From Aerococcaceae bacterium zg-252 (GTDB lineage: Bacteria; Bacillota; Bacilli; Lactobacillales; Aerococcaceae), in the NCBI GenBank assembly GCA_016237705.1, contig CP066204.1, positions 372,001 through 436,000 of the forward strand: 64,000 nucleotides of DNA. The letters run 5' to 3'. The notes below the pieces were generated by a model, which was not told the origin of the DNA, did not search any database, and saw only the letters and a program-made list of their open reading frames with translations. Below, piece after piece: positions 3,663 through 19,739 of the stretch. Both the position numbers and the translations under genes were made by a program. Numbering within the stretch: position 1 is the stretch's first letter; every line of letters starts with the position of its first letter.

Positions 3663-3809
3663 AGTCTATATATTTGAATGGAAACATATAAATTATTCTC
3701 GACGAGTATGCGAGTGTGAGGAATAAATTCTTCAACTCCATTATTTGATTTTATACGCATTTTATGCGAAACTGTATAAGATAGAAATAATGAATGGAGA
3801 CGATTCTAA

Positions 3810-4886
3810 GTGAATAATCAAACATTTCAATTAATTAAACAATTAACCGAAGTACAAGGGATTTCAGGTAATGAAAGACGTGTGCGTGAAGTCATTCGTG
3901 AGAAGATGACACCTTTAGTTGATGAAGTTCACCAATCGCCATTAGGAAATTTATTTGGGGTTAAACATAGCCAAATAGCAGATGCCCCACGTTTAATGGT
4001 AGCTGCGCACATGGACGAAGTTGGATTCATGATTAGTCGTATTACGGATAATGGGCTATTTGCTGTTATTCCAGTAGGTGGGTGGAATCCATATAGTATT
4101 TCAGCACAACGTTATACTTTGCAGACAAAAAAAGGGGATTATGTCTGCATTTCATCATCTGTTGCCCCTCATTTATTGCGTGGTAAATCAGAAGGACAAA
4201 GTGTGAAAGCAGAGGATATTCTCTTTGATGCTGGATTTACAAGTAAAGAGGAAGCTCTTGAGTATGGTGTGCGTCCAGGTGATTCAATTGTGCCACAAAC
4301 GGAAACAGTCAAAACTGCGAATGGAAAAAATATTATTAGCAAGGCTTGGGATAACCGTTATGGTTGTGCCGTTATGTTAGAGACATTAGCATCTGTAAAA
4401 GATTTAGTTTTGCCGAACCATTTAATCGCTGGAGCTTCTGTACAAGAAGAAGTTGGTTTGCGTGGGATTAAAGGGGCAGTACATCAATTCCAACCAGATT
4501 TATTTTTAGCTGTTGACTGTTCTCCAGCTGGTGATGCGGAAGGTAAGAAAGATGAATTTGGTCAATTAGGACAAGGATTTTTATTACGTATGCAAGACCC
4601 AGGTCATATTACTCATAAAGGATTAAGAGATTATTTATTGGATATAGCTGAAAGTAATCATATTCCGTATCAATATTTCTTTTCTAAAGGTGGAACGGAC
4701 GCTGGGGCTGCACATGTGATGAATAATGGAGTGCCAAGTGGTGTCATCGGTGTTCCAGGACGTTATATTCACGGACATCAGACATTATTTAGTATTTCAG
4801 ACTATGAAGCAGCACGTGAAATGCTGTTGAAAATTGTGACAACATTTGATAGAACAACATTAAATTCAATTTTAAAACAAGGGTAG
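3810..4886 (+). CDS. pepA: M42-family glutamyl aminopeptidase
   Basis: A 358-residue cytoplasmic metallo-aminopeptidase that removes N-terminal acidic residues from peptides. Visible M42 features are AHMDEVGF (about H67/D69, metal ligands), QEEVGLRG (catalytic Glu pair) and KGGTDAGAAH near the C-terminus. The length is typical for the family. The start is a GTG, about 10 nt after ATGGAGA. It is the first gene of a pepA-ytpR arrangement common in Lactobacillales; the stop lies within the ribosome site of ytpR, so the two are probably coupled. A CGCAT-TTT-ATGCG palindrome at 3756-3768 lies upstream and may be an operator. Confidence 0.92.
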   Translation: MNNQTFQLIKQLTEVQGISGNERRVREVIREKMTPLVDEVHQSPLGNLFGVKHSQIADAPRLMVAAHMDEVGFMISRITDNGLFAVIPVGGWNPYSISAQRYTLQTKKGDYVCISSSVAPHLLRGKSEGQSVKAEDILFDAGFTSKEEALEYGVRPGDSIVPQTETVKTANGKNIISKAWDNRYGCAVMLETLASVKDLVLPNHLIAGASVQEEVGLRGIKGAVHQFQPDLFLAVDCSPAGDAEGKKDEFGQLGQGFLLRMQDPGHITHKGLRDYLLDIAESNHIPYQYFFSKGGTDAGAAHVMNNGVPSGVIGVPGRYIHGHQTLFSISDYEAAREMLLKIVTTFDRTTLNSILKQG

Positions 4887-4896
4887 AGGTGTGACT

Positions 4897-5526
4897 ATGT
4901 GGTTAGCATTTTATAATCAAGAGGGTATCGGTGATGTTTTATTATTAACAAGTGGAACGGTTGCTGATGAACATATCGAAACGAAGTCGAATGACAATGT
5001 TACAGTTATTTATGATGAAATAACAAAACAGCCAGTGTCGATTAATATTTTTGGTGTTGCTGAGACATTGGGTTTAACTGGTAATGGTGCGATTGAATTG
5101 CATGATGAGCAAGTTAAATCTGTAAATCAGTTGATTCAGAAAGCGGGATTCGATATTGAAATTTCGGTTGATAATTCGCCTAAATTTGTGGTTGGACATG
5201 TGGAAACATGTGTGCCACATGAAGATAGCGACCATTTGAGTGTCACAACCATTCGAGTGGCAGCAGACGAAGTATTACAAATTGTGTGTGGTGCTCGTAA
5301 TATTGCCAAAGGATTAAAGGTATTGGTTGCCTTACCTGGTGCCGTAATGCCGAGTGGGTTAATTATTTGGCCAGGAGAATTGCGTGGTGTGGTAAGTAAT
5401 GGTATGGTTTGCTCGACACGTGAATTAGAGTTAACACATATTGAAGATTATCCAGGCATTTGGGAATTGAAATCAGATTTGCCAATAGGTATGCCATTAT
5501 CTGAAGTAGTTGCGCAATATGCGTAA
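4897..5526 (+). CDS. ytpR: YtpR family protein with EMAP/tRNA-binding domain
   Basis: 209 residues. The N-terminal half is a DUF4479-like domain; the C-terminal half (about 95-205) is the OB-fold tRNA-binding domain also found at the N-terminus of PheT, seen in VGHVETCVPHEDSDHL, QIVCGARNIAKG and GMVCSTRELEL. A role in tRNA binding follows from the family; the cellular job is not established. The ATG at 4897 is preferred over the GTG at 4891 because GAGGTG at 4886-4891 is its ribosome site. The site overlaps the pepA stop codon, indicating cotranscription. Confidence 0.88.
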   Translation: MWLAFYNQEGIGDVLLLTSGTVADEHIETKSNDNVTVIYDEITKQPVSINIFGVAETLGLTGNGAIELHDEQVKSVNQLIQKAGFDIEISVDNSPKFVVGHVETCVPHEDSDHLSVTTIRVAADEVLQIVCGARNIAKGLKVLVALPGAVMPSGLIIWPGELRGVVSNGMVCSTRELELTHIEDYPGIWELKSDLPIGMPLSEVVAQYA

Positions 5527-5566
5527 ATATGTAGAGCCAGTCGATATTAGAAAGTAGGTCGGATAG

Positions 5567-6127
5567 ATGAATTATGATGGTCCTGTTTATAAAAAGGCAA
5601 ACGAACAGAAAAAAAGACGATTTCAGTCACACTCTGTAAAGCAAAAACGTCAATTTGAATTGAAACAACCATCATTGCTTGATGATACTGCTCGTTCTAC
5701 TACACGCTATACCTTGCCTGAGAGTGCAAAAGGATTACGTCAGTACCAAAATTTAACGCCACCAGTTAATGCTAAAACGCTTAATCATCGGATTGAACAA
5801 GCGAATTTAACTGATTCGGAAGCAATGGTGCCAGAGAGTGAGTACCAAGTCCCTTTTTTAAATAAAACAAAAAAGACGGCAGTGTGGAAGACAGCTGTCG
5901 CACAAGAAAGCGATGAGAAAGTAAGTGCTCCAAATAATAAACGCACACTTTCACATCACTATCAGCCGGCATTAAAATCTATTTTTAGTGAAGTTCCAAA
6001 AGTTACAGAAAGTGTAGTTGAAGCATCACCTGTAAAGTCGATTGATACGAAAAATATTCGGACTATTTCGACACGATTAATTAAAGATAAGAGTAGTTAC
6101 TTATTGTTTGTTGAAGTAAGTAATTAG
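5567..6127 (+). CDS. Hypothetical basic, low-complexity protein between ytpR and murC
   Basis: 186 residues, strongly hydrophilic, rich in K/Q/S/T, with no membrane segment or recognised domain; it looks largely disordered. It starts [18 protein letters not shown] after GTAGGTCGG. In related genomes an FtsK/SftA-type DNA translocase gene often occupies this slot, and those proteins begin with a disordered, basic N-terminal region. This could be what is left of such a protein after loss of the motor domain (inference). No Walker motifs are present. It lies 19 bp before murC and is probably cotranscribed. Confidence 0.6.
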
Positions 6128-7511: not shown

Positions 7512-8432
7512 ATGCGAATTCAACAATTGCAATATTTAGAAAAAATTGCTGAAACAGGGTCAATGAATGAGGCGGCAAAACAATTATTTGTTTCTCAACC
7601 CAGTCTAACTCAAGCAATTAAAGAGCTAGAAAAAGAGTACCAAATCCAATTGTTTTATCGCAGTAAGACAGGAATGACTTTGACGAATGAAGGGCGTGAG
7701 TTTATTAATTATACTCGAGCGATTCTTGACCAAGTGAATTTATTGGATACTAAGTATAAGTCTGGTACGATTCGTAAACAAATTTTTAGTGTATCGGCTC
7801 AGCATTATGCCTTTGTGGTACATGCTTTTGTTGAATTAGTAAAATTGGTCGGTGGCGATGAATATGATTTTACATTGCGAGAAACCATGACGCAGCATAC
7901 GCTCGATGATGTGCAATCGTTTAAGAGTGAAATTGGTGTTATCTATTTAAGTCATTTTAATGAATCAGTATTGAAAAACTTAATTAATGAGAAAGAATTA
8001 GAATTTATTCCACTGTTCGAAGCATTTCCACATGTGTTTGTGGGACGAGATAATCCTTTAACGCAAAAAGAACGAGTGACATTAGAAGATTTAGAAGAGT
8101 ATCCATATCTTTCATACGAACAAGGTGATACCAATTCGTACTATTTTTCAGAAGAAATTTTAAGTACATTGTATCGCAAAAAACATATTCAAATTAGTGA
8201 CCGTGCGACGATTTTTAATTTAATGGTTGGATTGAATGGTTACACAATTAGTTCAGGAATCATTAGTAGTGCACTCAATGATGAAAAAATCGTAGCAATT
8301 CCTCTAGATGTTGATGAATCAATGACATTGGGCTATATTAAGCACAAAAAGATTAGTTTAAGTGCAATGGGTCAACAATATATTGAGTTATTGAAGCAAA
8401 ATATTAGTGACTATGGATTTAATTTGTTATAA
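7512..8432 (+). CDS. LysR-type transcriptional regulator
   Basis: 306 residues. The N-terminal winged helix-turn-helix is clear (QYLEKIAETGSMNEAAKQLFVSQPSLTQAIKELEKE), followed by a LysR substrate-binding domain. The second ATG at 7512 gives better spacing from GGAGG (7501-7505) than the ATG at 7509. It lies 30 bp after murC. The target and effector are unknown; the next gene, trpB, has its own promoter and leader, so a link to it would be speculative. Confidence 0.88.
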   Translation: MRIQQLQYLEKIAETGSMNEAAKQLFVSQPSLTQAIKELEKEYQIQLFYRSKTGMTLTNEGREFINYTRAILDQVNLLDTKYKSGTIRKQIFSVSAQHYAFVVHAFVELVKLVGGDEYDFTLRETMTQHTLDDVQSFKSEIGVIYLSHFNESVLKNLINEKELEFIPLFEAFPHVFVGRDNPLTQKERVTLEDLEEYPYLSYEQGDTNSYYFSEEILSTLYRKKHIQISDRATIFNLMVGLNGYTISSGIISSALNDEKIVAIPLDVDESMTLGYIKHKKISLSAMGQQYIELLKQNISDYGFNLL

Positions 8433-8647
8433 AGATAATACAAATTTTGGCTAGCTTGAACTATTGGGTTAAAAGGTTACGGATATATTAGGTGTAATGG
8501 GTAAGATGAAAAAAGGGACTGTGCAGAATGTCCAAAAATTTTAACAAATGAAATTAAAGATGCTGATTTAACAACATTCTTTTTCTTTAGATTGTTGAAA
8601 TTTCTGACTTTTTGCCCAGTCCTGTTTGTGTTTTGAAAATTTTTTCA
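8433..8647. other. Intergenic region between the LysR gene and the trpB leader
   Basis: There is no gene. It holds a 110-nt imperfect inverted repeat at 8514-8623, listed separately, which probably ends the LysR transcript. The rest is AT-rich with nothing recognisable. Confidence 0.6.
8514..8623. repeat. Long imperfect hairpin element (copy 1)
   Basis: AGGGACTG at the left end pairs with CAGTCCT at the right end, and AAATTTTAACAAAT pairs internally with ATTGTTGAAATTT. The right arm carries TTTTTGCCCAGTCC. Similar elements with the GACTGGGCAAAAA core occur at 10162-10250 and 26265-26344. It may act as a terminator or be a small non-autonomous repeat. Confidence 0.55.
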
Positions 8648-8676
8648 TTGACATCGAATGTAAGCGATGTTATGAT
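8648..8676 (+). promoter_or_regulatory. Sigma-A promoter of the trpL-trpB transcript
   Basis: TTGACA (8648-8653), a 17-bp spacer and TATGAT (8671-8676) form a near-consensus promoter. An inverted repeat CATCG-N8-CGATG (8652-8669) overlaps the -35 and fills the spacer, where a repressor could bind. Confidence 0.8.
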
Positions 8677-8706
8677 AGGGCTATCAAAAAGGAAGGAGCC
8701 ACATTT

Positions 8707-8760
8707 ATGTTATTCAATAAATTTACAAATGTATATCGTTGGCAAGCTTGGCATAGATAG
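8707..8760 (+). CDS. trpL: trp leader peptide with two Trp codons (trpL-like)
   Basis: A 17-codon reading frame starts with ATG 8707 after a strong AAGGAAGGAG ribosome site and ends with TAG at 8758-8760. The product reads MLFNKFTNVYRWQAWHR. Two Trp codons (8740-8742, 8749-8751) lie just before the stop. A short translated frame rich in the pathway's amino acid, between a promoter and competing hairpins ahead of trpB, is the hallmark of ribosome-mediated attenuation. The peptide itself is unlikely to have a function. Confidence 0.85.
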   Translation: MLFNKFTNVYRWQAWHR

Positions 8761-8882
8761 GTTGTAGACTTGGAGAAACATAATCCATGGATACAGCCCA
8801 GTTTTGACTGCAGTTGTATCTATGTGGCGATTTTATCAGTTTACCACGTAGATGTTTTTGATACATACTATGTGGTTTTTTT
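8752..8882 (+). promoter_or_regulatory. Transcription attenuator of trpB: competing hairpins and terminator 1
   Basis: Alternative pairings can be traced by eye. (a) CATGGATACA (8786-8795) or the end of the leader frame (8752-8767) can pair with 8808-8824. (b) ATCTATGTGG (8818-8827) can pair with CCACGTAGAT (8844-8853), an antiterminator. (c) ACCACGTAGATGT (8843-8855) pairs with ACATACTATGTGGT (8863-8876), followed by T7, a terminator. Pairings (b) and (c) are mutually exclusive, as required for attenuation. Which structure wins during stalling cannot be settled without folding. Confidence 0.75.
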
Positions 8883-8934
8883 GCTTAGCAATTTGTATCC
8901 ATGTAGTATGAATACAAATTGTTAAGCGTTTTTT
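8883..8934 (+). terminator. Second terminator in the trpB leader
   Basis: GCTTAGCAATTTGTAT (8883-8898) pairs over 16 positions (one G-U) with ATACAAATTGTTAAGC (8912-8927), followed by GTTTTTT. It directly follows terminator 1 and lies 27 bp before the trpB ATG. Its loop (8899-8910) is complementary to the right arm of terminator 1 (8864-8875), so the two could be linked. Confidence 0.8.
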
Positions 8935-8961
8935 ATATTTTAATATTAGGAGGAAATAAAT

Positions 8962-10149
8962 ATGTCAAATCAAGTGCAAAAAGGTTATTTTGGTGAATTT
9001 GGTGGAAGTTTTGTACCGCCACAAATTCAAACATTATTAGATGAGCTAGAGTCAGCATTTAATCAATATAAGGATGACGCAGCATTTTTAGAAGAATTTA
9101 GATCAAATTTACACGATTATTCAGGTCGTGAAACACCACTTTACTTTGCAGAGAGTTTAACAAAGCATTTAGGTGGAGCCAAGATATATTTAAAACGAGA
9201 GGATTTAAATCACTTAGGTTCGCATAAGCTAAATAATGTTTTAGGTCAAATTTTATTAGCTAAACGCATGGGAAAAACTAAAGTAATTGCAGAAACAGGT
9301 GCTGGGCAGCATGGTGTTGCGACAGCAGCAGCGGCAGCTAAATTCGGAATGGAATGTGATGTCTACATGGGTGCGGAAGATGTTGAACGTCAACGATTAA
9401 ATGTCTTTCGAATGGAGATGATGGGGGCAAGAGTTCATTCAGTTGAAACAGGAACTAAAACACTAAAAGATGCTGTGGATGCGGCTTTTGGCGCATGGAT
9501 GGCAGACCTAGATGCTTTTTATGTATTAGGTTCAGCTGTTGGACCACATCCATATCCAACAATTGTACATGAATTTCAAAAAGTAATTAGTTTAGAATCC
9601 AAACGACAAATTTTAGAAAAAGAAGGTAGATTGCCAGATGTTGTGATTGCATGTGTGGGTGGTGGTTCAAATGCTATTGGTGCTTTTTCGCAATATATCA
9701 ATGAATCGAATGTACGCTTAATTGGTGTTGAAGCAGCAGGAAAAGGGGTTAATACTAACTTACATGCAGCGACTATGACGAAAGGTGTAATAGGGATTGT
9801 CGATGGCATGAATACAATTGTCCTTAAAGATGAAAATGGCGAGGTTGCACCTGTTTATTCAATTTCTGCGGGGTTGGATTACCCAGGAGTTGGTCCAGAA
9901 CATGCGTATTTGAAAACTTCTGGGCGTGTAGAGTACCTTGCTGCTACAGATGATGAAGCGGTGGATGCTTTATTATTACTTTCTAAAACAGAGGGAATTA
10001 TTCCAGCGATTGAAAGTTCGCATGCAATTGCTAAAGCTATTCAATTGGCACCGGCAATGTCCAAGGATGAAATTGTGATTATCAATGTATCTGGTCGTGG
10101 AGATAAAGACGTTGCTTCAATTGCGAAATATTTAGAAACACGACAATAA
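8962..10149 (+). CDS. trpB: Tryptophan synthase beta subunit, orphan
   Basis: 395 residues. TrpB condenses indole with L-serine to give tryptophan, using PLP. The PLP lysine is K89 in HLGSHKLNN (most TrpB have HTGAHKINN), the catalytic Glu is E111 in [13 protein letters not shown], the phosphate loop is GGGSNAIG, and the C-terminal VSGRGDKD is present. The ribosome site AGGAGG precedes the ATG. Neither trpA nor any other trp gene is nearby, so the enzyme probably uses free indole. The Trp-codon leader upstream indicates tryptophan-controlled expression. Confidence 0.93.
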
Positions 10150-10161
10150 TAATTCAAAATA

Positions 10162-10250
10162 GGGACTAGGCAAAAATTTTTATATTACACTAATGTAAAA
10201 TGTATTTTCAGTTTGTTTTATTGTAATTAGCAATTTTTTGTCTAGTCTTT
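10162..10250 (+). terminator. Long hairpin element (copy 2), probable trpB terminator
   Basis: GACTAGGCAAAAATT (10164-10178) pairs with AATTTTTTGTCTAGTC (10232-10247), with an inner TATTACA/TGTAAT stem, and is followed by a T-rich tail. It shares the GACTGGGCAAAAA core with the elements at 8514-8623 and 26265-26344. Confidence 0.65.
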
Positions 10251-10318
10251 ATATTTTAAAATAGATTCCTAGTACAATATTTTAAAGCTTCATTTTGTAA
10301 TTTTTACGATTAAAACGA

Positions 10319-10347
10319 TTGCAATAAACGGCATTTTGTTGTATGAT
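10319..10347 (+). promoter_or_regulatory. Promoter of gldA
   Basis: TTGCAA (10319-10324), 17-bp spacer and TATGAT (10342-10347) lie about 70 bp before the gldA start. Confidence 0.65.
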
Positions 10348-10417
10348 TTAATCAAACAAAAGCAACTATGCTTTATAACACAATATGTGAAAATGGTCAC
10401 ATGGAAAGAAGGAAATT

Positions 10418-18514: not shown

Positions 18515-18545
18515 TTGACTGGCTGAAAGGTGTATATGATATAAT
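18515..18545 (+). promoter_or_regulatory. Promoter of toxin mRNA, copy 1
   Basis: TTGACT (18515-18520) and TATAAT (18540-18545) are 19 bp apart; an overlapping TATGAT is at 18535. Transcription would start near 18552. Copies 2 and 3 have TAAAAT at the same place (18967-18972 and the equivalent before 19406) without a clear -35. Confidence 0.6.
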
Positions 18546-18596
18546 AATCTATGTAGAAAAGTGAAGACGGTGGCTCCTGAAACCGAAAGAGAGGTG

Positions 18597-18659
18597 ATGC
18601 CTATGGGCAGTTCATCAAAATCTACCGGAAAGGAGGGAGCATATTTTGACTGCATTTGA
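18597..18659 (+). CDS. Leader ORF overlapping toxin, copy 1
   Basis: 20 codons (MPMGSSSKSTGKEGAYFDCI) start from an ATG right after AGAGAGGTG and overlap the toxin start by 14 nt in another frame. The frame spans the toxin's AGGAGG. This recalls the mok/hok arrangement, in which translation of an overlapping frame opens the toxin ribosome site. A functional peptide is not excluded. Confidence 0.5.
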   Translation: MPMGSSSKSTGKEGAYFDCI

Positions 18660-18747
18660 AGTTGTACAAACGATACTTAGCTTTAGTAGTTTTATTATTG
18701 CTTTGATTAGTTTGTGCTATAAAATCTTCAAAGACAATAAAAAATAA
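18646..18747 (+). CDS. Small hydrophobic holin-like toxin, copy 1
   Basis: 33 residues: a short polar N-terminus (MTAFEVVQT), one membrane helix (ILSFSSFIIALISLCY) and a basic tail (KIFKDNKK). The start is a TTG, 9 nt after AGGAGG. Size and layout match the holin-like toxin family (Hol_Tox) and other type I membrane toxins. Expected action, from the family, is membrane depolarisation when free of its antisense RNA. Copies 2 and 3 encode the same protein except Asp30 to Glu in copy 3. Confidence 0.75.
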   Translation: MTAFEVVQTILSFSSFIIALISLCYKIFKDNKK

Positions 18748-18853
18748 TCCGTCCCCACTTTTGACACAGTAGGACGGATTAAATTCATCTGATGGTGTCG
18801 CCGTCTTTTTAACGGTTCTACGCTGGAGCTGGAGTGCAATCCAGCTCTTTTGT
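18740..18853 (-). ncRNA. Putative antisense antitoxin RNA, copy 1
   Basis: The minus strand has TTGAAT-17-TATAAT (plus-strand coordinates 18888 down to 18860) with an extended -10, placing the start near 18853. The RNA would run about 113 nt, begin with the GAGCTGGA/TCCAGCTC hairpin, and end at AATCCGTCC/GGACGGATT (18746-18780), whose T-rich tail lies on the minus strand. It overlaps the toxin mRNA 3' end. Confidence 0.65.
18826..18851 (+). terminator. Toxin mRNA terminator, copy 1
   Basis: GAGCTGGA and TCCAGCTC form an 8-bp stem followed by TTTT. Equivalent hairpins lie at 19251-19276 (copy 2) and 19677-19703 (copy 3). Confidence 0.75.
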
Positions 18854-19023
18854 ATTTTTATTATATAGCATAAAAAGAGTAAATTCAAGTGAGTGGAGAG
18901 ATTAGTTAGTAATCAAATTCACAAAAATCTATAAACATGATGATTTTAAATAGGGAACTTTTATGATAAAATATTCTATGTAGAAAAGTGAAGACGGTGG
19001 CTCCTAACACCGAAAGAGAGGTG

Positions 19024-19086
19024 ATGCCTATGGGCACTTCATCAAAATCTAACGGAAAGGAGGGAGCATATTTTGACTGCATTTGA
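19024..19086 (+). CDS. Leader ORF overlapping toxin, copy 2
   Basis: 20 codons (MPMGTSSKSNGKEGAYFDCI) in the same position and overlap as in copy 1. Differences at residues 5 and 10 change amino acids, so selection may act on the RNA or on translation rather than on the peptide. Confidence 0.5.
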   Translation: MPMGTSSKSNGKEGAYFDCI

Positions 19087-19174
19087 AGTTGTGCAAACAA
19101 TTCTTAGCTTTAGTAGTTTTATTATCGCTTTGATTAGTTTGTGCTATAAAATCTTCAAAGACAATAAAAAATAA
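19073..19174 (+). CDS. Small hydrophobic holin-like toxin, copy 2
   Basis: 33 residues, TTG start after AGGAGG, protein identical to copy 1 although several codons differ silently (GTG for GTA, ATC for ATT). Silent drift with a conserved product points to selection on the protein. In this copy AAGACGGTGGCTCC at 18991-19004 is perfectly complementary to GGAGCCACCGTCTT at 19220-19233, so the mRNA ends can pair. Confidence 0.75.
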   Translation: MTAFEVVQTILSFSSFIIALISLCYKIFKDNKK

Positions 19175-19278
19175 TCCGTCCCCCACTTTGGCAAAGTAGG
19201 ACGGATTAAATCATCTTACGGAGCCACCGTCTTTTAACGGTTCTACGCTAGAGCTGGATTGCCGTCCAGCTCTTTTGT
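19166..19278 (-). ncRNA. Putative antisense antitoxin RNA, copy 2
   Basis: Minus-strand promoter TTGAAT-17-TATAAT (plus-strand 19313 down to 19285). The RNA would end at the AATCCGTCC/GGACGGATT hairpin at 19173-19207. Sequence and layout match copy 1. Confidence 0.65.
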
Positions 19279-19448
19279 ATTTTTATTATATAGCATAAAA
19301 AGAGTAAATTCAAGTGAGTGGAGAGATTAGTTAGTAATCAAATTTACAAAAATCTATAAACATGATGATTTTAAATAGGGAACTTTTATGATAAAATATT
19401 CTATGTAGAAAAGTGAAGACGGTGGCTCCTAACACCGAAAGAGAGGTG

Positions 19449-19511
19449 ATGCCTATGGGCATTTCATCAAAATCTACCGGAAAGGAGGGAGCCTATTTTG
19501 ACTGCATTTGA
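19449..19511 (+). CDS. Leader ORF overlapping toxin, copy 3
   Basis: 20 codons (MPMGISSKSTGKEGAYFDCI), same AGAGAGGTG ribosome site and 14-nt overlap with the toxin as in the other copies. Confidence 0.5.
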   Translation: MPMGISSKSTGKEGAYFDCI

Positions 19512-19599
19512 AGTTGTGCAAACGATTCTTAGCTTTAGTAGTTTTATTATCGCTTTGATTAGTTTGTGCTATAAAATCTTCAAAGAGAACAAAAAATAA
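19498..19599 (+). CDS. Small hydrophobic holin-like toxin, copy 3
   Basis: 33 residues, TTG start after AGGAGG; differs from copies 1 and 2 only by Asp30 to Glu (tail KIFKENKK). The 5' block AAGACGGTGGCTC (from 19416) pairs over 13 bp with GAGCCACCGTCTT (19646-19658). Confidence 0.75.
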   Translation: MTAFEVVQTILSFSSFIIALISLCYKIFKENKK

Positions 19600-19705
19600 T
19601 CCGTCCCCCACTTTGGTCAAGTAGGACGGATTAAATTCGTAATACGAGCCACCGTCTTTTTAACGGTTCTACGCTGGAGCTGGATTGTCGTCCAGCTCTT
19701 TTTCT
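19592..19705 (-). ncRNA. Putative antisense antitoxin RNA, copy 3
   Basis: The minus-strand promoter is TTGAAA-16-TATAAT (plus-strand 19739 down to 19712). Flanking bases differ from copies 1 and 2 because the repeat ends here, yet promoter boxes are kept, which supports function. The hairpin AATCCGTCC/GGACGGATT follows the toxin stop. Confidence 0.6.
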
Positions 19706-19739
19706 ATATTCATTATAACATACAAAAATTGAATTTCAA

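Follow-up and report, generated by a model that had tools for sequence, protein, structure and literature searches.

A tryptophan-codon leader peptide and a relay of exclusive RNA pairings are predicted to control trpB in an Aerococcaceae genome, with relatives carrying other codons

The window, by which we mean the whole stretch of 64,000 nucleotides from Aerococcaceae bacterium zg-252 (contig CP066204.1), carries trpB on its + strand at 8962–10149; the encoded protein of 395 aa matches TIGR00263 with 611.9 bits (cut-off 392.45), and trpB would be the regulated gene. Upstream, a consensus scan places a promoter at 8648–8676 (+), with TTGACA, a spacer of 17 and TATGAT, and with TG ahead of the −10 element, which agrees with the consensus at 11 of 12 positions and bears out the near-consensus promoter of the preliminary description. 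Five other promoter-like sites in 8400–10400 all reach 9/12, and because shuffles average 9.3 such sites, the promoter counts by its quality and position only. A Shine–Dalgarno (SD) sequence, AGGAAGGAG, follows at 8690–8698 (+), and then a leader frame of 17 codons at 8707–8760 (+) that starts with ATG at 8707, encodes MLFNKFTNVYRWQAWHR and ends with TAG at 8758–8760. The two Trp codons previously noted near its stop are codon 12 (W1, 8740–8742, +), the predicted stall codon, and codon 15 (W2, 8749–8751, +), and two codons separate W2 from the stop.

Relatives of this leader peptide end in W-Q-x-W-H-R and a stop codon, or in variants of that ending, and on this basis we regard the frame at 8707–8760 as the putative sensor. 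W1 is present in 115/115 aligned leaders, a set that was selected for having it and that leaves out locus L196, and a second Trp is found in 55 of 82 representatives. An SD of −5 kcal or lower precedes 114/115 leaders compared to 70/575 random ATGs, with the leaders scored at their best in-frame start, a choice that favours them. Substitutions in the leader frames show a third-position excess (50/98, from pairs that are not independent), and, taken as a whole, the leader has a fold 5.4 sd more stable than those of dinucleotide shuffles (z −5.4; 0/200 shuffles equal). The residue after W1 (window 8740–8745) is Gln in 104/115 leaders, though it is encoded outside the first of the RNA segments described next.

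From the last leader codons onwards, the RNA can be divided into six segments with alternative partners, and a seventh lies in a second terminator. Segment 0 (8746–8759, +) comprises the last leader codons, including W2, and can pair with C at 8817–8828, with −12.9 kcal as an isolated duplex and support from swap tests. Segment A (8760–8774, +), just after the leader stop, pairs with segment B (8784–8798, +) with −17.1 kcal and is supported by covariation; B can pair with A or with C. Segment C (8813–8828, +) is the antiterminator strand, whose partner is 0, B or D, while segment D (8844–8856, +) pairs either with C as the antiterminator or with E as terminator 1, and segment E with its U run occupies 8863–8882 (+). 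The mutually exclusive hairpins of the preliminary description are thus recovered as A:B (8760–8798), B:C (8784–8827), C:D (8817–8854) and D:E (8844–8875). The terminator that it placed before trpB also stands, as D:E with its U run, but it had not separated from this a second, long hairpin with a U run at 8883–8934 (+; terminator 2, fold −17.3 kcal). A strict terminator scan (loop 3–8) of 8400–10400 returned no terminator, and the script for second terminators missed the hairpin at 8883–8934, so both terminators rest on fold and homology.

We consider it very likely that the trpB leader is a ribosome-mediated transcription attenuator, for which we infer the stall, the starvation signal and the termination. 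When charged tRNA-Trp is short, the ribosome would pause with W1 in its A site and cover most of segment 0, leaving A free; A would then pair with B, C would be free to pair with D, terminator 1 would be blocked and trpB would be transcribed. When Trp is plentiful, the ribosome would reach the stop codon and cover both 0 and A, so that B:C and then D:E could form and transcription would stop. The amino acid sensed would be set by the leader codons, which differ among relatives in step with the regulated gene. The preliminary description had been puzzled by a hairpin at 8786–8824 that a ribosome at the Trp codons does not mask. That hairpin holds, as B:C at 8784–8827, and the puzzle would be answered by segment A, because A pairs with the 5′ arm of the hairpin at the Trp stall and is covered when the ribosome stands at the stop codon.

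Covariation among homologous leaders, which had been proposed as a check, supports the pairings among the six segments. The two strongest covarying column pairs in the 115 aligned leaders fall in A:B and the next in D:E, and several of the other top-scoring columns are not base pairs. We also compared native duplexes with duplexes of swapped partners in the 82 representatives, which are <80% identical to each other, with swaps only between sequences <60% identical. Native partners were better for all five pairings (0:C p 1e-7, A:B p 4e-15, B:C p 5e-13, C:D p 2e-9, D:E p 2e-15), and the same five were supported in 39 representatives of another order, introduced below (p 2e-12 to 1e-5; locus L257 left out). 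In both sets the segment borders were fixed after viewing the alignments, and the pairing statistics ignore the kinship of the sequences. The control pairs 0:A, 0:B, A:D and B:E showed no native advantage in the 82 representatives, nor did 0:A, 0:B, 0:D, A:C, A:D and B:E in the 39; a role for 0:A, 0:B, A:D or B:E was rejected, since native partners were no better than swapped ones. The control 0:E had a small native advantage (p 3e-4 in the 82, 1e-3 in the 39), which we put down to E resembling C.

Alignment A1, a non-random set of 36 hand-picked from the 82, mostly W-x-x-W leaders with all segments, gives a similar picture. A:B has 88.0% of cells paired with 42 two-sided changes (0/500 shuffles as high), D:E 96.1% (0/500) and B:C 84.8% (0/500), and the figure for C:D is modest (85.7%, 22/500). 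For 0:C, 85.7% of cells are paired (1/500 shuffles as high), with two-sided changes in A1 not above those of the shuffles (76/500). What is observed in the sequence is a translated-looking Trp frame together with conserved, mutually exclusive pairings, and these change together across relatives.

The two ribosome positions were then represented by folding transcripts that end before E, with the ribosome edge assumed at A-site +12. With the ribosome at W1, C:D formed in 70/82 representatives and A:B in 64/82, and C was still sequestered in 14/82; moving the edge to +10 or +14 gave C:D in 65 or 69 of 82. A ribosome at the stop codon left C sequestered in 82/82, and a C:D of at least 5 pairs persisted in 22/82 (81 and 30 at edge +10, 81 and 19 at +14, each of 82); the window copy retained a partial C:D in this state, with 6.4 expected pairs. 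In the absence of translation (folded from 9 bases before W1), C was sequestered in 46/82 and C:D formed in 38/82, and the fold of the window copy favours C:D over 0:C; shut-off without translation is therefore not predicted for the window copy. With the ribosome at W2, the predicted outcome varies with the assumed edge. W2 was rejected as the main stall sensor and W1 preferred as the stall codon, because the second Trp is missing in 27/82 and because the W2 outcome is edge-dependent.

The second terminator may extend this switch in the window's family. Segment F (8899–8910, +), the loop of terminator 2, is complementary to E at 8864–8875 (12 bp, −15.1 kcal). In 17 representatives of the 26 W-x-x-W leaders found within the family, native E:F duplexes are at −15.1 kcal and swapped ones at −10.5 (p 8e-6); the advantage persists when all leader types of the family are included (28 representatives, p 1.5e-4) and is weak outside the family (p 0.015, 54 representatives). 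E:F may be a coupled second gate, in which freed E, by pairing with F, would block terminator 2, so that one decision governs two terminators in series. The second-terminator script flagged 16/28 family and 28/54 non-family representatives. Three loci of the other order (L224, L225 and L251) carry two near-identical terminators in tandem downstream of the motif.

DNA similarity found the leader in 25/76 family genomes and 14/21 genera, and at a second place in the genome of the window. W-x-x-W leaders are present in 26/30 loci found in this way, the others being L104, L105 and L107, with one Trp each, and L106, an unrelated DNA match. The next gene at 25 of the 26 is TrpX-like, and it is trpB in the window only; the TrpX of the same genome scores 341 bits against NCBIfam TrpX, below the cut-off of 390, and matches Pfam PF04392.

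The Rfam family RF04312 ('trpB') matches the window at 8784–8887 (+; model positions 1–107) with 35.6 bits and E 0.0014. With a cut-off of 59 the copy is no formal member, and it does have the P1 hairpin followed by a terminator in a 5′ leader. We take the two to be homologous because L105 was found both by DNA similarity and by the RF04312 model (48.3 bits). The model has the same B:C hairpin, as P1, and the same D:E terminator, and the genes that follow are trpB or TrpX-like; A:B is absent from it, and segments 0 and A lie outside. RF04312 matches 210/395 genomes of the window's order, which we infer to be Lactobacillales, at E 0.001 (59 over the cut-off; 51/80 genera). The window's own genome and genus fail this search, which loses weak matches. 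Among 14 named controls, only Lactococcus lactis matched, below the cut-off. At the sensitivity used, no plasmid or phage copies of the leader were matched.

We read 90 RF04312 places, the 30 best with loci and 60 picked for genus spread. In 89 of them a Trp-codon frame comes to its end shortly before the motif. A stricter test, which asks for an SD and for Trp among the final 11 codons, accepts 88/90 compared to 1.4% in dinucleotide shuffles; as the RF04312 model starts downstream of the frame, these counts do not depend on the way in which the loci were collected. The gene that follows is TrpX-like at 80 loci, trpB at six (L120, L127, L131, L143, L177 and L179) and neither at four. The preliminary description had thought a stalling switch of this type unusual in Lactobacillales, a view that the spread of RF04312 through the order and the 80 loci before TrpX-like genes contradict. 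It had also held that homologues with a broken frame and intact hairpins would speak against the reading. Only L196 of the 90 lacks the frame, and we take it as a chance match because its sequence and neighbouring gene are unlike the others. These counts bear on the reading that the tandem terminators are constitutive or protein-controlled, with the frame incidental or only a translation enhancer. The long stem of terminator 2 would suit such a reading, and a protein factor was left possible for the motif by Narunsky et al. (PMC11109978), but the near-universal frame and the association between codons and genes described below make it scarcely credible.

An even draw across the phylum gave RF04312 matches in 4/398 genomes, one of them from the window's order. 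Of the others, L204 and L205 had no such leader and were taken as chance matches, and L203, with Phe codons in its leader, led to the other order, which is probably clostridial. There, 40/194 genomes match RF04312, all of one family and none over the cut-off, and an SD-preceded leader frame is in place at all 58 loci read. At least three His fall within the last nine residues at 9/11 HisS/HisZ-cluster loci and 1/47 others; the one exception, L206, also has a HisZ-like gene, and the two HisZ-like proteins tested both match PF13393. The count of nine is an undercount, because L218 was given the wrong frame and its other frame ends in HHHS. At least four Leu occur in 8/8 loci of one symporter clade and 0/50 others, and at least four Phe/Tyr in 19/25 loci of a second symporter clade and 8/33 others, five of the eight being BrnQ-type carriers. 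With one protein tested per class in Pfam, both symporter clades match PF00209 and the BrnQ-type PF05525. Six permease loci (L238, L245, L247, L253, L260 and L261; PF02653 at L245) have two or three Phe/Tyr, or four at L260, mixed mostly with Val, in place of Trp, and a TrpX-like gene at L231 likewise follows Phe, not Trp, codons. These are hints that the TrpX-like and permease transporters of the other order are possibly not Trp-specific.

This exchange of codons bears on two further readings. The first holds that free Trp, as in TnaC-like arrest, stalls the ribosome on the stop codon after ...WQxWHR, where it would cover 0 and A and cause termination, so that the sign would be the same and the sensor different. 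The Gln that follows W1 so regularly could be explained in this way, and a ribosome held at the stop codon does give the OFF fold; we nevertheless judge it very unlikely, because the same RNA parts serve leaders that have F, Y, H or L runs and because the conserved residues at the peptide's end are encoded by segment 0, a partner of C. The second is that RF04312 is a metabolite riboswitch, whose ligand, tryptophan or a related compound, is bound by the hairpin at 8784–8827 and the RNA around it. Narunsky et al. (2024; PMC11109978) rated the motif a strong candidate on its covarying hairpins, 5′-UTR position and antiterminator in P1. No aptamer would need a conserved upstream frame whose Trp codons give way to Phe/Tyr, Leu or His codons as the gene changes, and many of the conserved bases are engaged in alternative pairings, which makes a riboswitch highly improbable. 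For ribosome-mediated attenuation, an SD-preceded leader frame, Trp codons before trpB or TrpX-like genes with other codons that vary with the gene and, under the assumed ribosome footprint, an exclusive antiterminator and terminator are all found. The conserved Trp frame, the five pairings and the change of codon identity with the regulated gene support, at the level of sequence comparison, the ribosome-stalling Trp attenuator first proposed for this leader.

The earlier remark that the trpB leader has no T-box also holds. There is none among the Rfam matches in the window, nor in 8440–8970 at E up to 5, and a T-box reading (RF00230) was rejected for want of a covariance-model match in the window; elsewhere the same genome has 15 T-box matches, six of them over the cut-off. 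The E. coli trp leader (RF00513) is likewise not among the Rfam matches in 8440–8970 at E up to 5. A TRAP-regulated leader carries an array of (G/U)AG triplets.

A second Rfam family appears to share the architecture. RF02863, 'Enterococcus sRNA 2410', is filed as a small RNA and has the same fold with Phe/Tyr codons instead of Trp; in the structure curated for it by others, 0:C encloses A:B, and it matches the same places as the motif in 5/10 loci scanned. It is found in 84/148 genomes of the order (37 over its cut-off), and by the SD criterion FYFSYFR-like leaders are present in 29/32 distinct RF02863 loci. The three genes tested after such leaders encode PF04392 (ABC_sub_bind) proteins or shikimate dehydrogenase. 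Among 24 RF02863-type representatives, 0:C (p 0.002) and A:B (p 1e-5) were supported and two control pairs were not (L291 left out; L310 repeats L290). The genome of the window carries both versions before different genes, the Phe/Tyr one at L298, where a SYFYSYFR leader precedes a PF04392 protein and the RF02863 match is below the cut-off. We somewhat favour the view that RF04312 and RF02863 belong to a single superfamily, made up of leader-peptide attenuators with codon-programmable specificity and spread over Lactobacillales and, probably, Clostridia. In it the last codons would serve both as part of the sensor and as an RNA arm able to shut the switch, and in the window's family one ribosome decision would pass through seven segments to two serial terminators. 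Because relatives carry Phe/Tyr, Leu or His codons instead of Trp, the motif, published as a riboswitch candidate, has the look of an amino-acid sensor whose specificity can be swapped.

Narunsky et al. described the trpB motif (SRC-39-1) from >900 representatives, which precede trpB in occasional cases and an uncharacterised ABC transporter most often, and ruled out neither a protein factor nor a classic attenuator (PMC11109978). The motif has been reported from Fusobacteria too. In the main text of that paper the word 'peptide' occurs 0 times, and the parts consulted mention no leader frame for the motif; in the literature searched, only this paper uses the name 'trpB motif'. We take RF02863 to be sRNA_2410 of Sinel et al. 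(2017; PMC5593968), by name and by its length of 195 nt. They saw the Enterococcus faecium sRNA_2410 as two transcripts on Northern blots, and 'leader' and 'attenuat' occur 0 times in their main text. The two transcripts fit two terminators but could also come from processing. The number 2410 was not found in the parts consulted of PMC7724050 and, by word-start search, PMC3166299, and a literature query for 'sRNA 2410', a wording that may miss 'sRNA_2410', gave no match. Among the matches listed for Clostridium and Firmicutes leader peptides, trpX, Term-seq and enterococcal RNAs, no title or abstract start reports this mechanism; full texts and supplements may mention it.

In E. coli trpL, two Trp codons lie near the leader end, before a stall-dependent antiterminator and an intrinsic terminator. 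The present leader, as modelled, shares all three features with it (RF00513). It differs in placing a further relay, of A:B and B:C, between codons and antiterminator; the window's family also has the second and perhaps coupled terminator. The Salmonella his leader is a multi-segment relay of more than four alternating segments; the relay is shared, but the segment order and the pairs differ, 0:C enclosing A:B here. The mechanism class has experimental support in Bacilli from Listeria Rli60 (PMC5864092), which differs in responding to branched-chain amino acids at ilv-leu genes. His-codon leaders before hisS/hisZ or his genes have been described in Firmicutes (Naville and Gautheret 2010, PMC2965389; Ashniev et al. 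2022, PMC9413887), namely in bacilli (Bacillus cereus group), Peptostreptococcaceae with Lutispora and Erysipelotrichales, and by description they resemble the His leaders of the other order. A 26-genome survey lists uORF attenuator candidates with Cys or Phe codons before cysS or aroF and a terminator (PMC8632094); as far as its text was available to us, these come from other taxa and genes and do not include the trpB motif. Ribosome-mediated attenuation is thus a known kind of control, and what would be new is the variant and the assignment of two Rfam families to it, for which the comparative evidence is strong. It offers a concrete answer for RF04312, a widespread orphan riboswitch candidate, and would probably recast a Northern-detected enterococcal sRNA as a terminated leader. 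The data also suggest that aromatic amino-acid genes of low-GC Gram-positives are commonly controlled by leader-peptide attenuation instead of T-boxes, and that attenuator specificity has changed by codon exchange.

The origin of the window's trpB was approached through its distribution. It is present in 1/4 genomes of the genus, the window's own included, and trpA (PF00290) and IGPS (PF00218), each found in 14/14 controls, were not found in this genome, so trpB is probably alone and salvaging indole. The TrpB protein is 80–83% identical to streptococcal TrpBs (11 loci compared) and 73% identical to the best TrpB of its own family under the same motif; a TrpB genome scan kept 80 loci, every one streptococcal, a set from which near records may be missing. 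A T-box, of unspecified specificity, lies within ~250 bases upstream of trpB in 6/7 streptococcal loci scanned, L079 being the one without, and RF04312 has no match in the seven at E 0.01. In S. suis, trpX is controlled by a T-box and is part of a Trp uptake system (PMC9382623). The trpB leader is 81–84% identical to the four trpX leaders of the genus, and the trpX leader of the same genome is 89–92% identical to the other three. This fits capture of trpB behind a copy of the trpX leader. The streptococcal TrpB matches and the T-boxes upstream of their genes suggest a regulator swap from T-box to leader-peptide attenuator. At L068 of Streptococcus ovuberis (3803–6001), a T-box-preceded trpB has immediately after it a gene that looks TrpX-like by eye, suggesting that salvage and import are coupled there.

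Two further observations concern neighbouring elements. Group II intron matches (RF02001, RF01998) lie at 1688–2004 of L113, ~80 bases downstream of the best-scoring RF04312 copy. Within 18530–19715 of the window, Rfam rli28 (RF01492) occurs three times in tandem, every copy with a TTG-started 33-aa peptide, MTAFEVVQTILSFSSFIIALISLCYKIFK(D/E)NKK, one of which was tested and matches Pfam Hol_Tox; a RatA match on the − strand, barely over the cut-off, follows, and the region looks like a tandem type I toxin–antitoxin array.
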